From Laspinema palackyanum D2c (GTDB taxonomy: Bacteria; Cyanobacteriota; Cyanobacteriia; Cyanobacteriales; Laspinemataceae): DNA of 64,000 nucleotides. The position numbers and the translations under genes were made by a program. Location: NCBI RefSeq assembly GCF_025370875.1, contig NZ_JAMXFD010000030.1:1-64000 (forward strand), read 5' to 3'. The number at the start of each line of letters is the position of its first letter. The stretch's first letter is position 1. The notes beneath the pieces were generated by a model. The model saw nothing but the letters and a program-made list of their open reading frames with translations, did not search any database and had not been told where the DNA came from. This document shows positions 1,111 through 6,690 of the stretch, in pieces.

Positions 1111-1710
1111 ATGACTGGAAAGCGGATTTTAATGTTGGTGGGCGATTATGTGGAAGATTATGAAGTAATGGTCCCCTTTCAAGCGCTGCAAATGGTGGGC
1201 CATATTGTTCATGCCGTCTGTCCGGATAAGACTGCCGGGGAAACGGTTCGGACTGCAATTCACGATTTTGAAGGGGACCAAACCTACAGCGAAAAACCGG
1301 GTCACAATTTCGCCCTGAATGCAACGTTTGCGGAAGTGGATCCGGCGACTTATGATGCTTTGGTGATTCCCGGGGGACGTGCGCCGGAATACATTCGCCT
1401 GAATCAGCGGGTTTTGGAAATTACCCGTCATTTTGCTCAGGAAAATAAGCCGATCGCCTCGATCTGTCATGGATTACAACTGTTAGCGGCAGCGGATGTG
1501 CTGCAAGGGAAACGCTGCACCGCTTATCCCGCCTGTGGTCCCGATGTGACTCGCGCTGGGGGGACTTATGTGGCGATCGCCGTAGATGAGGCGATCGTGG
1601 ATGGCAATTTGGTCACGGCCCCCGCTTGGCCCGCTCATTCCGCTTGGTTGGCGGAATTTCTCAAGGTTTTAGGCACTAAAATCGAGCATCGCGACCTGGC
1701 GGCAGTTTAA
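1111..1710 (+). CDS. DJ-1/PfpI family protein
   Basis: 199 residues with the DJ-1/PfpI (class I glutamine amidotransferase-like) fold: a beta-strand start [15 protein letters not shown], the core [16 protein letters not shown], and the nucleophile elbow [16 protein letters not shown], whose Cys-His is the expected catalytic pair. Members include deglycases, chaperones and proteases, and the exact substrate cannot be read from the sequence. The start at 1111 is chosen because aaggag at 1097-1102 is well placed before this ATG; an upstream TTG at 1093 would overlap it. The gene is monocistronic and follows the repeat element downstream of petN. Confidence 0.88.
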
Positions 1711-1723
1711 TCCTAAATCCGGG

Positions 1724-1960
1724 TTAGAACCACCCCCACCATCGCCCTAGAAATTGCCAAAAGCGATCGCCCCATTGGGCCGCACAGAGTCCGAAAAGGG
1801 TCCCTAATACTAAACTCCAGGCGACTGCACCTCCGGCAGTCATCCCATCCCAAAGGAAGAAAATCGCGATAAATATTCCGGCGATCGCCCCACAGACAAA
1901 TCGGACAATCCATCCGAAGAGATCCGGGCGACGCTTGGGATGGGGATGTTGCTGGGTCAT
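1724..1960 (-). CDS. Small two-helix membrane protein, unknown function
   Basis: 78 residues. A short basic N-terminus (QQHPHPKRRPDL) precedes two hydrophobic stretches, roughly residues 16-38 and 44-62, and a Trp-rich end. The Gly-rich spacing of the helices (GAIAGIF, GAVAWSLVLGTLFG) suggests packed membrane helices. It converges on the DJ-1 gene, with only 13 bases between their stops. I do not recognise a family. A G+A-rich sequence (gaggaatcc) precedes the ATG and may be its ribosome binding site. Confidence 0.6.
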   Translation of the reverse strand: MTQQHPHPKRRPDLFGWIVRFVCGAIAGIFIAIFFLWDGMTAGGAVAWSLVLGTLFGLCAAQWGDRFWQFLGRWWGWF

Positions 1961-2095
1961 GATGGATTCCTCTTGATTTGGGTCCTTTCCCGCCTTCTAT
2001 ATCATACTTTTGGCAAGTTGGTGACGATATTTACAAAAATTTATTAAAAACCGCGTCATAATCAGAATCATAAGAAACCATCTGGAGGAAAATCT

Positions 2096-2536
2096 ATGAG
2101 TTTAGCTAAATCTGTTAAAATCCGGCCTTTAGAAACCATGCAGTCTGGAATGACTGAGTTTTATACTCCTCAGTCAAGTCATGAAACCATGTTAGTCCAG
2201 GTGAAAGCGCGGACCTGCGATGATTTATTCGTCCATCATTTTCAGACGGATCAATTGCTGGTGGTCCGGGGCAGTTTTGTGTTAATAGTGTTACAGAATC
2301 GTCAATATCGCTATATTCCTTTGAGCGATCGCTATCCGGCAGTGGTGACGATTCCTCCGGGGGTTCCCCATAGTGCGATTAATTTCAGCGATGAACCCTG
2401 TCTGGTGGTGAATGCAGTCTTACGAAATGGAGACCCCAATCCCCGAGATTATCGCCCGATGAAACCCCGGATTCCTTATGATTTAGTCGCGGCGCGATCG
2501 GCGTTGGATCAGATGATTAGTCCTGTTGTTGCTTAA
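2096..2536 (+). CDS. Cupin-fold protein
   Basis: 146 residues resembling small RmlC-like cupins: LLVVRGSFVLIVLQNRQYRY and PLSDRYPAVVTIPPGVPHSAIN match the two cupin motif regions, with PPGVPH carrying the usual His. No fused domain is present, so the ligand is unknown. A strong Shine-Dalgarno (ggagga, about 2084) precedes the ATG. The downstream DUF167 gene begins three bases after the stop, so the two are very probably cotranscribed together with the ABC-2 permease that follows. Confidence 0.7.
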   Translation: MSLAKSVKIRPLETMQSGMTEFYTPQSSHETMLVQVKARTCDDLFVHHFQTDQLLVVRGSFVLIVLQNRQYRYIPLSDRYPAVVTIPPGVPHSAINFSDEPCLVVNAVLRNGDPNPRDYRPMKPRIPYDLVAARSALDQMISPVVA

Positions 2537-2539
2537 ATT

Positions 2540-2761
2540 GTGCCACTCTACCGAATTAAAGTTAAACCCAATTCTAAACAGCAGCAGATTACGGAAGAAG
2601 CTGATGGCAGTTTGACGATTCGTCTGAAATCCCCTCCCGTTGATGGCAAGGCGAATGCAGAGTTAATTAAACTGTTGGCGGATAAATTTGAAGTTCCCAA
2701 ATCAGCGATTGTGATTAAATCGGGTGTTTCTTCTCGAAATAAACTCGTGGAAGTGTTGTAA
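2540..2761 (+). CDS. DUF167 (YggU) family protein
   Basis: 73 residues with the complete DUF167 pattern: [13 protein letters not shown], then [20 protein letters not shown], and [21 protein letters not shown] at the end. The length is typical of YggU-type proteins, whose biochemical role is still not established. The start is a GTG only three bases after the cupin stop, which implies translational coupling. Confidence 0.88.
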
Positions 2762-2797
2762 AACTGAAGAAGGAAAACAAGACAACAAGCGGGTATT

Positions 2798-3622
2798 GTG
2801 GCATCTGAACTTAGATTAAAACCGGAAGTGACTTCTGGGCGATCGCGATCGCCTCTATCCACCCTCTGGGACGATAGTATCACGATTTTATGGGGAGACT
2901 GGCTCGATTTACGGGTGCGGGTGGTCCAAGTGGCCGCCTCGGGCCTGGTTTCTCCTTTGATTTATATCCTAGCATTTGGTTTAGGGTTAGGAAATACCAT
3001 GCGATCGGGCATGGGTGGGGGAAATAGTTACCTAGAATTCATGTTACCAGGAATGGTCGCCCTGTCTTCCATGACGATCTGTTTTGCCGGGACGGTTTTT
3101 TCCATTTGTGGGAAACGTTTATTTACCAAAAACTTTGAAGAAATGCTGCTGGTGCCGATTCATCCTCTTTCCTTATATCTCGGCAAAATGATGGCCGGAA
3201 TTTTGCGCGGGTTGATGACATCGGGTTCCGTCCTCTTGGTTGCCATTCTGTTTACTGGCAAAATTTGGAGTTTCCTCAACCCCTTATTTTTACTGTTGTT
3301 GTTGCTGAATTGTGCCGTCTTTTCGGGATTGGGTGTTTTGGTGGGATTAACGGTAAAATCCTTAGAAAGTGTGGGAATTTATAACAATTTTATCATTGTC
3401 CCCATGTCGTTTTTAGGCGCTACTTTTTTTGACCCAACCCAATTACCGGCAGCCCTAAAAGTGGTGGTCTATCTGTTGCCTTTGACCTATACGAGTATTG
3501 GATTAAGGGCGGCAGCTTATGATATGAGTCAGTTTCCCTGGTATAGTATTGTAGTTCTGGCAATTATTGCCGTGGGATTATCCATTCTCGGAGCCCGCCA
3601 GTTTGCCAATCAGCAGGATTAG
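2798..3622 (+). CDS. ABC-2 type transporter permease
   Basis: 274 residues with six hydrophobic segments (about 48-68, 82-108, 130-155, 165-190, 200-230, 245-265) and the ABC-2 family signature region LPLTYTSIGLRAAAYDM before the last helix. ABC-2 permeases export drugs, polysaccharides or lipids in partnership with a separate ATPase, and no ATPase gene is adjacent, so substrate and partner are unknown. The start is a GTG at 2798, 36 bases after the DUF167 gene, suggesting a three-gene operon. No better ATG lies upstream of the first helix. Confidence 0.82.
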   Translation: MASELRLKPEVTSGRSRSPLSTLWDDSITILWGDWLDLRVRVVQVAASGLVSPLIYILAFGLGLGNTMRSGMGGGNSYLEFMLPGMVALSSMTICFAGTVFSICGKRLFTKNFEEMLLVPIHPLSLYLGKMMAGILRGLMTSGSVLLVAILFTGKIWSFLNPLFLLLLLLNCAVFSGLGVLVGLTVKSLESVGIYNNFIIVPMSFLGATFFDPTQLPAALKVVVYLLPLTYTSIGLRAAAYDMSQFPWYSIVVLAIIAVGLSILGARQFANQQD

Positions 3623-3649
3623 AAATTCCTTGCTTTGAAGGTAGATCTA

Positions 3650-3765
3650 CATGAAGAAAGCCCGCGCTTCGACCCCCTACGACGGGGCTCAGGACAGGCT
3701 TCGACGGGGCTCAGGACAGGCTTGGCTCAGGACAGGCGTGACTCAGCACAGGTCTGCGCGGGCTA
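3650..3765. repeat. Interspersed repeat built from gcttcgacggggctcaggaca units
   Basis: Between the permease and the J-domain/HNH island there are tandem partial copies of a ttcgacggggctcaggacag unit (about 3680-3740), enclosed by cccgcgc...gcgcggg arms. The same unit family occurs at 9515-9600 and 29375-29535. It is probably a non-autonomous repeat, and no reading frame is evident in it. Confidence 0.65.
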
Positions 3766-3818
3766 AAACTGAAACCTCTAGATCCGGATGGCAATAAACT
3801 AAGGACACTAACGAGAAC

Positions 3819-4850
3819 TTAATCTTTACTTTCAGGTAATGTTCCTTGTAATTGAGCCAATTTAATCATTAGAACTCCTCGCTTATTGTGCAAGGTTAAG
3901 ATTAATTCATGCTTTTCTGGATAGAGCCTCTCCACATAATCAATGAAGTCGTCTATTGTACAAGTTGTGTTGGTTCCTCCATTCCATTGATGAAAATTTT
4001 CATGCACTCTTTTATCAATTGTTAATATGTTATCTGGCTCGTCGCTAAGATAATGGTAAGTATTTTTATCATAAAGATGATGACCAACTAATTCAATTAG
4101 TTCGTTATACTTATCTCTATAAGCTCCAGTCACCTGACAAGTTTTCTTATCTCTACTTTTGGCAAAGTTTACAGCTTTGCGAATTTGTTCTTGAGTTGGA
4201 GAAGGCTTGATCGCCAGAAATTTTAATACAGGAGGAGCAACTGTAGGAACCCTTTTACAATAATCCCGCCTCTGCTCTGAGCGCAATTTTAATGACAATT
4301 CTATACTAAGTTTTTCTAATCCAGACAAAGAGAAGAAGGTTATGCCTTCATAATATTCAAAGTCTATATTCATTCTCATTGGGTCTTCAGATTTTTGAAT
4401 ATCTTTAAATGCCTTCTGTAACCTAAGGGAAGTTGTAATAAATATCCGTATTACATCTTCTCGACTAAGCCAGTGGCGTTGATTTCTGAAAACTAAAGAA
4501 GAACTATTTTGATATAGCGCCGTCCGAACCCTTCTATCTATTTGATTAAGACGATAGTTATCTAGTAATGCAATTACTCTTTTGAGGGAAAATTCAGTGG
4601 CTCCACCGCTCAAATCTAGATAGCTTGCAATAGCCAACGCCCCTTCACGAGAAAATATCCTAATCGGCTGTTGCTTGTTTACATAATTTTGAACTACAAA
4701 ATGCAAGCATTCTTTGATTTGAATACTTTCATCAGTCGATGCCTGTAAACAATCAACTATTTCGTCAAAAGCTTGTTGCGGTAGTTCTAAAGCTTGAGCA
4801 AGCTTAGTTTCTTCAATATAGAAAACTTCTCTATCAAAATTCATGATCAA
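3819..4850 (-). CDS. HNH nuclease-like protein with N-terminal helical region
   Basis: 343 residues, product uncertain. The C-terminal third shows an HNH-like pattern: C238-x2-TG, paired H257-H258 in LVGHHLYDKN, N274 in EPDNILTID, then H283 and H287 in RVHENFHQW. The N-terminal part contains RIFSREGALAIASYLD, resembling the DNA-binding helix seen in phage BRO/antirepressor-like proteins. The middle is charged and helical. The ATG overlaps the last four bases of the J-domain gene, so the two are translationally coupled. The pair is visibly richer in A+T than its neighbours and holds no HIP1 octamer. I infer an acquired nuclease module; activity and target are unknown. Confidence 0.55.
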   Translation of the reverse strand: MIMNFDREVFYIEETKLAQALELPQQAFDEIVDCLQASTDESIQIKECLHFVVQNYVNKQQPIRIFSREGALAIASYLDLSGGATEFSLKRVIALLDNYRLNQIDRRVRTALYQNSSSLVFRNQRHWLSREDVIRIFITTSLRLQKAFKDIQKSEDPMRMNIDFEYYEGITFFSLSGLEKLSIELSLKLRSEQRRDYCKRVPTVAPPVLKFLAIKPSPTQEQIRKAVNFAKSRDKKTCQVTGAYRDKYNELIELVGHHLYDKNTYHYLSDEPDNILTIDKRVHENFHQWNGGTNTTCTIDDFIDYVERLYPEKHELILTLHNKRGVLMIKLAQLQGTLPESKD

Positions 4851-5398
4851 AATCCAGCAATTATACTCTTATACATATTTTCCACTTCCTCAAAAATTGC
4901 TCGATCACCCGTTACCAAATTATCAGGATGATAAATTTTGGATAGTTGATAGTAAGCAGTTTTAACATCATTCTTCGTGGCAGTTTGGGGATTTAGACCA
5001 AATACTTGCCAGGGCTTAAAGTATTTAAAGATATCAATTCCATTAATACAACCATATCCTTCCTGGCTTTGCTCATTTGGAAGAATACCCACAAATTTTC
5101 GATATAGTGTTTCCCAAGTTGGTTTTAAGCGAAAGTTTAATTTGCCCATGCCATCCGTAGCCATCCTGAATGCACCAGATTTTTTCAACTCTGATGTATC
5201 CTTTACGCTAAAACGCTCATAGATAGCTTGTTTTAGGTCATTAGTCTTCAGCGACTGAGCTTTCTTACTTGACTTTTCTTTTGATATCTCAAGAACGAAA
5301 TAGGCAAACTCCTCCAAAAGTTTGGAGTCAACCTGCCTGACTTGAGCAAGACGATCTATCTCAGTCTTTACTTGGGGAGCTAGAACTACCTGTGGCAT
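4847..5398 (-). CDS. J-domain (DnaJ-like) protein, C-terminal J domain
   Basis: 183 residues. The C-terminal 55 residues form a compact J domain: KPWQVFGLNPQTATKNDVKT, AYYQLSKIYHPDN with the diagnostic HPD at 157-159, and a helix IV-like FEEVENMYKSI. J domains recruit and stimulate Hsp70. The first ~75 residues are charged and helical, and residues 76-125 are an unrecognised segment. In ordinary DnaJ proteins the J domain is N-terminal, so a C-terminal position on a small unknown domain is unusual. The gene heads a two-gene operon with the HNH-like protein. The ATG at 5398 gives the full helical N-terminus; the next Met would be at residue 79. Confidence 0.65.
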   Translation of the reverse strand: MPQVVLAPQVKTEIDRLAQVRQVDSKLLEEFAYFVLEISKEKSSKKAQSLKTNDLKQAIYERFSVKDTSELKKSGAFRMATDGMGKLNFRLKPTWETLYRKFVGILPNEQSQEGYGCINGIDIFKYFKPWQVFGLNPQTATKNDVKTAYYQLSKIYHPDNLVTGDRAIFEEVENMYKSIIAGF

Positions 5399-5454
5399 GG
5401 GAGTACCAACACAATTTTATTTTATCCATTATACCAAGACATTTATTGTAAGTC

Positions 5455-5545
5455 AAGCGCAGGGCTGGGAGCATCCCAGTTTTTCATTCAGTAGAAATAC
5501 TTAAAGAAAAGGCCCGATTCAGATAAGCACAGCGCAACCTTAGCG
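5455..5545. repeat. Short intergenic segment with ctgggagcatcccag hairpin
   Basis: The segment upstream of the J-domain gene contains the perfect palindrome ctgggagcatcccag near 5466, then cattcagtagaaatactt and a cggtt-poor spacer. It has the look of a dispersed cyanobacterial repeat and bounds the A+T-rich island on its other side, but I see only this copy in the window. Confidence 0.35.
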
Positions 5546-5567
5546 GTAATCCTAAATATGTAATGAT

Positions 5568-5618
5568 TCATGATTTAGCAAATAATTTACGGAATTGTGC
5601 CGTAGTCCGAGACTTCAT
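5568..5618 (-). pseudogene. RelE/HigB-type toxin remnant, 16 codons
   Basis: An ATG at 5618 overlaps the antitoxin stop in an ATGA arrangement and opens a frame reading MKSRTTAQFRKLFAKS, then a stop. The beginning matches the start of RelE/ParE-superfamily toxins as I remember them (MKSRTT.xFRK.FAKLP), which normally run about 90 residues. No continuation is found in the bases that follow, so the toxin gene has been cut off and replaced by unrelated sequence. Confidence 0.55.
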
Positions 5619-5833
5619 AGGGTCTCGGGATCGAGTTCTTGGGTTTTACCGGCGTGATACTCCGTCATTGCTGAAGAGGCGAGTTGGGCAAGGAGATCGG
5701 GCGATCGCGAGAAGGATTCATCCCAGCGTTGCTCCTCCTCAATTTCTGCCAAAATCACCGACGCGATCGCATCTTGTTCCGTTTCCGGTAAAGCCTGCAT
5801 CAGGGCAATTGCTCGTTCAAGTAACTCAGTCAT
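5615..5833 (-). CDS. Putative type II antitoxin, orphaned
   Basis: 72 residues, acidic and helical: MTELLERAIALMQALPETEQ, DAIASVILAEIEEEQRWDESF, ending KTQELDPETL. This is the pattern of the small acidic antitoxins that precede RelE/HigB-like toxins in cyanobacteria; they normally bind and neutralise the toxin and repress their own promoter. The expected toxin gene starts in the 4-base overlap but is truncated after 16 codons, so this antitoxin is probably an orphan. Confidence 0.65.
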   Translation of the reverse strand: MTELLERAIALMQALPETEQDAIASVILAEIEEEQRWDESFSRSPDLLAQLASSAMTEYHAGKTQELDPETL

Positions 5834-6106
5834 GGCGATTACTTAATTATAAAAAATTTAGTTTATCCATTATAGCAGTTTTGATGTTATAAATTGCCCC
5901 CGAATGTTAGACAGGCGTTGGACTGTTTGGATGCGGGGATTGGGTTTGGGGAGAACGGTACAGAAAAGCGATCGCCCAGTCGTGATTCCAACGAGATGCC
6001 TGAGTATCGACAATTGTCTTTGTTTTAAGTTCGGTCGGAGGCGATCGCTTTTGTATTTATCCCATTTCGGGGGAAGTTAGGCGGGGCAATATTCCCCTGT
6101 TTAGGA

Positions 6107-6460
6107 TTAAAGTCTTGCCAACAGGTTAAACAGGATGGAGTTGATAAAGCTGAGGGCTAAGGTCCCGATGAGGGCACTCCAAAATCCCCAACGGAGGCGA
6201 AATCCCGTCACTAACCAAGCGGCTAATCCAAAGATAATCGCATTGATAATAAGGCTGAACAATCCTAGGGTTAGGAAGGTTATTGGGAAAGCTAAAACCT
6301 GTAAAATTGGCTTAATCAGCGCATTTAATACGCCAAATACGGCAGCGGAAATTAAGGCTTTTTGAAATCCATCTATTTCTACGCCGGTGGGCAGTTTAGA
6401 AATAATAAACAAGCTGATTGAGGTGATGAGCCAGGTAATGAGCAAGCTAACGATATCCAT
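6107..6460 (-). CDS. Phage holin family protein (DUF/PF04020-like, four TM)
   Basis: 117 residues with four hydrophobic helices and the family landmarks LPTGVEIDGFQKALISAAVF, GVLNALIKPIL, LTLGLFSLIINA and GFWSALIGTLALS. This family of small bacterial membrane proteins is named after mycobacterial holins, but in free-living bacteria no lysis role is established. The length is typical. The gene stands alone; neither flank suggests a prophage. Confidence 0.85.
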   Translation of the reverse strand: MDIVSLLITWLITSISLFIISKLPTGVEIDGFQKALISAAVFGVLNALIKPILQVLAFPITFLTLGLFSLIINAIIFGLAAWLVTGFRLRWGFWSALIGTLALSFINSILFNLLARL

Positions 6461-6690
6461 GAGAATGTCTCCTATTGATCGCCTAAAGGATTATGATACA
6501 GGGAAAGCAGGATTTCTGCTGGGACAATTGGATATTCTGTCTCGGCAGGAGAAATCCGCACTCCCTGGACAGGTTATACAGACGGTAGGCTGTCTGGTGG
6601 AGGTTGCTTGGGATTGATACAGAAAATTTATATAACTGAGGCGATCGCCCGGTTTTCTTGGGTGTCGGTACCGCATGAAATCGATGAGGA

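Follow-up and report, generated by a model that had tools for sequence, protein, structure and literature searches.

A paired J-domain and HNH-like gene unit of cyanobacteria that may be a chaperone-controlled defence or toxin system

Two adjacent genes of the cyanobacterium Laspinema palackyanum D2c raise the question of why a protein ending in a J domain should be encoded directly before one that carries an HNH-like motif. They lie in the window, which is the whole stretch of 64,000 nucleotides that was analysed (contig NZ_JAMXFD010000030.1) from a genome of 7.03 Mb, and they are called J and H below. A sequence-only reading had proposed a nuclease-chaperone system. Searches of open-licence PMC papers turned up no description of a J-HNH pair, and the one studied here could be a defence or toxin system, under chaperone control, that has yet to be described.

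Both genes lie on the minus strand (Table 1), which corrects the first reading. H had been read as a protein of 343 residues whose gene overlaps that of J by four bases. Both statements hold only if a TTG is the start codon. At that position the window and two of five near relatives have TTG, two others have CTG and one has TTA. All six, however, share an ATG two bases past the J stop. The start of H is taken to be this ATG, at 4844, which leaves 341 residues and no overlap. A promoter-like site is placed at the upstream edge of the two-gene unit, although the region holds four such sites against a shuffle mean of 5.4, which is not above shuffles.

Table 1. Positions of the genes, the unit, the slot and the viral J modules
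Sequence	Feature	Position	Strand	Remarks
Window	ABC-transporter permease-like gene (reading)	2798-3622	+	Left slot border; adjoins the variable stretch in 8/8 genomes of the genus
Window	Mobile two-gene unit (putative)	~3814-5457	both genes -	Homology to L003, L004 and L005, which share one other context
Window	H gene	3819-4844	-	341 aa from ATG; N-terminus with antirepressor-like duplication, C-terminus with HNH-type motif
Window	J gene	4847-5398	-	183 aa; middle region conserved (~residues 48-128), J domain at C-terminus
Window	Promoter-like site TTGACT-17-TATAAT, TG ahead of second hexamer	5428-5456	-	11/12 consensus matches
Window	ParE-like toxin gene, first 14 codons	5577-5618	-	Same 14 residues start an 86-aa protein of congener G418
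Window	72-aa ORF in antitoxin position, upstream of the broken toxin gene	5615-5833	-	Similar ORF before the ParE-like gene in G418
Window	C5-cytosine methyltransferase remnant, last 41 codons	5903-6028	+	Similar to C-termini in five congeners
Viral L066	J module ending a larger protein	5131-6519		462 aa; SPP1-type portal gene nearby (Pfam)
Viral L067	J module ending a larger protein	1509-4304		~930 aa; LPD1; follows portal gene (Pfam)
Viral L068	J module ending a larger protein	3100-5889		~930 aa; then Mu gpF-like gene (Pfam)
Viral L069	J module ending a larger protein	3697-6489		~930 aa

The assignment of J is straightforward. The HPD motif stands at residues 157-159 of the 183, and the match to Pfam DnaJ (PF00226; 29.2 bits against a cut-off of 27.8, E 1e-6) covers residues 131-177, which places the J domain at the C-terminus as the sequence-only reading had it. 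HPD is found in 29 of 29 rows of the J family alignment and at 16 of 16 later loci. The families matched by window J are all of the DnaJ type apart from one chance-level row; no SecB family and no LPD family is among them. The C-terminal part of PHROG 9210, a phage family of 204 positions and unknown function, also matches window J (E 3.6e-4), and this family may share the layout with the J domain at the end. Both genes are under purifying selection: among six sequences (15 comparisons) dN/dS ranges over 0.08-0.20 in J and 0.15-0.43 in H.

What of H? The residues singled out in it at the start are all present: C238, H257/H258, N274, H283 and H287 counted from the TTG, which become C236, H255/H256, N272, H281 and H285 from the ATG. 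In an alignment of 29 H proteins, later extended by 16 to 45, C236, H255, H256, N272, H285 and C295 (ATG numbering) occur in every protein and H281 in 43, and the motif residues are still kept in aligned proteins with as little as 22% identity to window H. The spacing HH-x15-N-x8-H-x3-H is that of colicin-type enzymes. The order HH, N, H, H is common to H and the HNH_2 (PF13391) and colicin-type nucleases, but H differs from these in having extra invariant cysteines, two antirepressor-like repeats in front and scores that are mostly below the cut-off. With E limited to 5, HNH_2 is matched by eight of the 29 members (best E 2.9e-4); with the limit at 10, it is matched by 17 family H genes out of about 50, drawn from 49 pair-bearing or related genomes. 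The matches span the motif region. The curated cut-off of 21 bits is passed by one family H (G135, 24.5 bits), with another just under it (G304, 20.3 bits). Window H itself gives no HNH_2 match, and its best score against Pfam, NCBIfam, PHROGs and PADLOC does not go below E 0.16.

The AlphaFold models, from an input alignment of six sequences, are poor (pLDDT 39.7 and 51.3); the second, at low confidence, has a strand-strand-helix order at the HNH motif. Foldseek returned no match to the models at E 0.001, and the H profile gave six weak matches to solved structures, none an HNH protein by name. The nuclease fold of H is a prediction from invariant residues and mostly sub-threshold HNH_2 matches rather than from a confident structure. 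The antirepressor-like helix also proposed for the N-terminus is weakly supported, in that two of the 29 members match Bro-N (best E 0.002). One domain is present twice within the first 200 residues (hhalign 86%, pairwise E 5e-6).

Homologues living apart would speak against a joint system, and within the family no intact H is found apart from J. In 386 genomes of the phylum there are 31 intact H loci, in 29 genomes, and at all 31 the gene follows J immediately and in the same orientation; J and H also adjoin at 18 of 18 later loci that are absent from the profiles. H is downstream of seven out of seven further J genes; J is upstream of eleven out of eleven further intact family H genes. From these counts the pairing goes beyond chance, and the coupling of J and H is real. 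Across the 386 genomes the profile searches located 34 J-family loci (32 genomes) scoring above 100 bits and 31 loci with an intact H (29 genomes), all of them in the class of the window. Single-protein searches gave J matches in 66 genomes, many to ordinary DnaJ domains, and H matches in 31, one a remnant and one at chance level. Both genes are also present in five named relatives (genera Oscillatoria, Arthrospira, Phormidium and Geitlerinema), two of them within the sample. At the 31 loci the gap between the genes is -10 to +38 bases except in G131, where the H reading frame begins 289 bases past J and the profile match about 100 bases past it. The partnership with an HNH gene is kept down to 31% J identity. 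Over 26 pairs J and H distances correlate with r 0.90, a value that includes shared ancestry and that none of 2000 permutations reached.

The departures from pairing are asymmetric. J occurs without an intact H at three loci (two with an intact J, one with a cut J), and an intact family H without J at none. Behind the J of G121 there is no trace of H in 20 kb, behind that of G022 there is an 18-codon H stub, and in G157 it is J itself that is cut. This cut gene, which has no J domain (L035:1453-1872), lies directly upstream of a gene reading as dnaK. Remnants of H without J are found in G415, G237, G221 and G539.

The eleven further H genes were reached with a divergent HNH protein, that of G080, as query against 233 genomes. 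Of its 42 matches, 15 were known family members or G080 itself and 21 were examined; six ORFs of 625-701 aa were left out (G083, the second of G482, G454, G159, G547 and G091). The 21 comprise the eleven new family H proteins, seven long ORFs, the HNH protein of G552, a 110-aa H piece (G539) and a lone HNH protein in G121. The long ORFs (624-694 aa) begin alike, have no HPD ORF near them and are presumably ThyX with an intein.

The HNH proteins of G080 and G552 have other N-termini, and each is encoded just after a protein with a C-terminal HPD. The HPD protein of G080 matches Pfam DnaJ at E 0.0011, below the cut-off, and that of G552 was called from the motif and a family-profile score of 18.9 bits. 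The G121 HNH protein, 52% identical to that of G552, has no J beside it. Divergent J-HNH operons are located at L147:6360-8085 and L235:1160-2313, and a relative of the second HNH protein (L194) is without J. The two operons suggest, from sequence, a wider family. Six weak matches of the H profile (G340, G327, G052, G168, G259 and G076) have no HPD ORF within about 2 kb and read, by eye, as other HNH proteins; two more, G098 and G381, were left out of this inspection. Beside the J-like matches on Bosea and Euzebya plasmids no neighbour is annotated as HNH.

How far does the unit extend? It had been described as an island bounded by repeats at 3650-3765 and 5455-5545, and this proved wrong: no repeat links the two sides, and the homology to L003, L004 and L005 ends near 3814 and 5457. 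Measured from the genes, the shared stretch begins 59 bases ahead of the J start and stops 5 bases beyond the end of H; it holds a promoter-like site and two genes. Tandem repeats of 22 and 16 bases do occur at 3680-3752, within what looks like the terminator hairpin of the permease gene, a hairpin that is plain in G416, G417 and G418. In L003, L004 and L005 the pair sits between a CHAT-like gene (by Pfam in L003) and a pair of genes for 123-127 and 538-558 aa, which in L003 have no Pfam match.

The idea of a variable insertion fared better. Within genus g23 three species carry the pair with the same flanks, and two others match those three over 1756-1757 bases around the pair, with short matches elsewhere. 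The flanks of these two differ from each other where compared, one lying near a contig end. Together with the varied contents of the slot in the window's own genus, these flanks indicate that the unit is mobile. A larger operon was considered and rejected: among the compared loci, wide recurrence is confined to J, in 26 locus groups, and H, in 24. The next recurring neighbour is an ABC-ATPase cluster, in five locus groups and also at seven control loci. No transposase gene recurs beside the pair among the compared loci.

In the window's genus the variable slot runs from the permease gene to the genes from 6107 onward, and its contents differ across the eight sampled species; J-H is therefore one of several alternative occupants. 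It fills the slot in two (the window and G417), a C5 methyltransferase in five and a ParE-like toxin in one (G418, an 86-aa protein with Pfam ParE_like at E 1e-13). G416 and G421 have a 258-aa gene with the methyltransferase gene. In G416 the methyltransferase matches Pfam C5 methylase at E 3e-63 and the 258-aa protein has no Pfam match; the 258-aa gene of the two species is a probable restriction gene. The methyltransferase is also present in G420, in G419 with what remains of the 258-aa gene and in G415 with the C-terminal half of H. Next to the pair the window itself holds nested remnants (5577-6028), namely a ParE-like toxin stub, an ORF in antitoxin position without a Pfam match and a methyltransferase tail. 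They appear to mark a slot refilled more than once.

Does the pair then belong to defence islands, as had been suggested? At this slot the suggestion stands; elsewhere it is weak. Of 20 pair-bearing genomes only two, G131 and G262, have a C5 methylase no further than about 7 kb from the pair, and alternation with a methyltransferase is not a general rule. General enrichment near defence genes was weak in a scan of one locus per group (23 loci), in which 148 of 228 eligible neighbour proteins of 120-1299 aa were drawn at random, small toxin genes below 120 aa being left out. The 142 controls are those left of 148 drawn from 153 eligible proteins after removal of six that were too large. The PADLOC families matched number 144 among neighbours and 116 among controls; single methylase models hit 3-4 of 148 neighbour and one of 142 control proteins, the controls having other PADLOC matches. 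The neighbourhoods are mostly housekeeping genes. Among the matches listed, PIN toxins within about 7 kb occur only in G187 and G207, with no clear enrichment. Neither J nor H matches a family of PADLOC-DB 2.0.0 at E up to 1.

The reading that we prefer, which has close to an even chance of being right, is that J-H is a self-contained mobile conflict cassette of the toxin or defence kind, with a predicted nuclease tethered to a chaperone. H would be a DNA-binding HNH nuclease effector and J its private partner, holding H through its front and middle. The C-terminal J domain would bring the cell's DnaK to the complex. An adaptor to DnaK is the likeliest role for a private J that moves together with a DNA-binding HNH protein. 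In a resting cell J and DnaK would keep H folded yet restrained. Infection or stress would then titrate or break the tether, and H would be freed and cut DNA, presumably to the host's benefit. The order of the genes, with J first, the survival of J without H and the lack of any intact family H without J fit restraint, on few loci. More broadly, the conflict-cassette reading is supported by the adjacency (31/31, then 18/18) and the same HPD-HNH order in G080 and G552, by motif invariance, dN/dS and the correlated distances, and by the alternation in the slot and the finding of J without an intact H but never of an intact family H without J. It is weakened by the poor models, the empty Foldseek search and the single HNH_2 pass, by the PADLOC result, the housekeeping neighbourhoods and the PIN counts, and by the lone G121 HNH protein and the few loci behind the J/H asymmetry; in sequence, moreover, restraint and activation would look alike.

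What if J activates rather than restrains? H would then be a selfish or homing-type endonuclease by which the unit spreads, with J and DnaK folding H or freeing it from DNA. The DnaJ/DnaK machinery remodels replication complexes of phages and plasmids. Such a role would suit a unit found at different sites with no recurring transposase gene, and an H whose duplicated N-terminal half weakly resembles DNA-binding antirepressor domains. However, no gene but J and H recurs widely and no common target gene is seen, and the flank comparison covers only a few loci. We consider activation unlikely.

Another possibility is that the pair is a domesticated phage module, derived from virion or packaging genes and without a role in conflict. 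J-like sequences are found at 52 viral loci. Four of them score 144-163 bits with the J-family profile, the others about 51 bits or less among the matches listed, and in these four contigs the J module ends larger proteins (the Pfam scan of viral J proteins left out L068 and L069). Pfam places a portal gene near the module in two of these contigs, L066 and L067; in L068 its neighbour is a Mu gpF-like gene. Against this, H has no relative in the 52 viral loci (by profile), in annotated phages or in viral sequence scans, and phage structural genes are not among the widely recurring neighbours of the pair. A phage origin of this kind is improbable, below activation in our estimate. The G080 HNH protein is likewise missing from the viral sequence scan. 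H and the two divergent H proteins have no match among plasmids, and J has none among annotated phages and plasmids.

Perhaps the viral J modules are instead weapons against the pair. Here J-H would be an immune cassette with its nuclease gated by Hsp70 through the private J, and a phage J module, carried on virion-associated and possibly injected proteins, would serve as a decoy, binding H or tying up DnaK ahead of the release of the nuclease. Polyvalent proteins, the class of LPD1, are predicted to be injected with phage DNA (PMC5512222). For the DnaJ proteins of jumbo phages the prediction is instead that they enlist host Hsp70 in folding and assembly (PMC7824862), which speaks against a decoy. 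This extended proposal is a long shot, on a par with the phage module. Least probable of all is that H is a regulator or a dead nuclease whose HNH part only shapes the fold while J controls its turnover, for the two antirepressor-like repeats and the want of a confident nuclease fold would allow it, but the motif is kept in 45 of 45 proteins (one His in 43) down to 22% identity.

Where would the preferred conflict cassette stand among known systems? The comparisons that follow hold for the portions of the cited papers available to us. The toxin-antitoxin-chaperone (TAC) systems resemble it in that a dedicated chaperone gene helps to check a toxin (PMC11618068, PMC5105189, PMC6377645). In CmdTAC, an anti-phage system, the chaperone senses capsid protein, which causes it to depart and sets the toxin free (PMC11618068). 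However, TAC systems have three parts, with a SecB-like chaperone backing the antitoxin, whereas J-H consists of a predicted HNH effector and its J-domain partner, encoded by two genes. Because J is no SecB-like chaperone, J-H does not belong to the TAC systems; as an analogue it would be closest to them, and above all to CmdTAC. An Hsp70 co-chaperone is also required by the defence protein bNACHT25 in order to sense phage, but there the host's own DnaJ works with a NACHT protein, whereas J is encoded with a predicted nuclease (PMC12169576). The predicted GAP1-N2 GTPase conflict systems encode a DnaJ domain beside Hsp70-type proteins; they differ in being multi-gene and GTPase-centred, with DnaJ fused to FNIII repeats and no HNH partner named (PMC7159879). 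Polyvalent LPD proteins of phages come near through L067, whose protein has LPD1 and the J module at its end and lies by a portal gene. The available text on polyvalent proteins has no mention of DnaJ or a J domain, and window J is without an LPD match (PMC5512222).

If the conflict-cassette reading is true, Hsp70, a near-universal chaperone, would control a bacterial nuclease weapon, and the folding state of the cell would be tied directly to immunity. It would also predict why some viral contigs carry the J module of this family. The family is compact and patchy, in 29 of the 386 sampled genomes. Even with another function, a J-HNH partnership kept down to 22% identity in H and 31% in J is a well-defined unknown.
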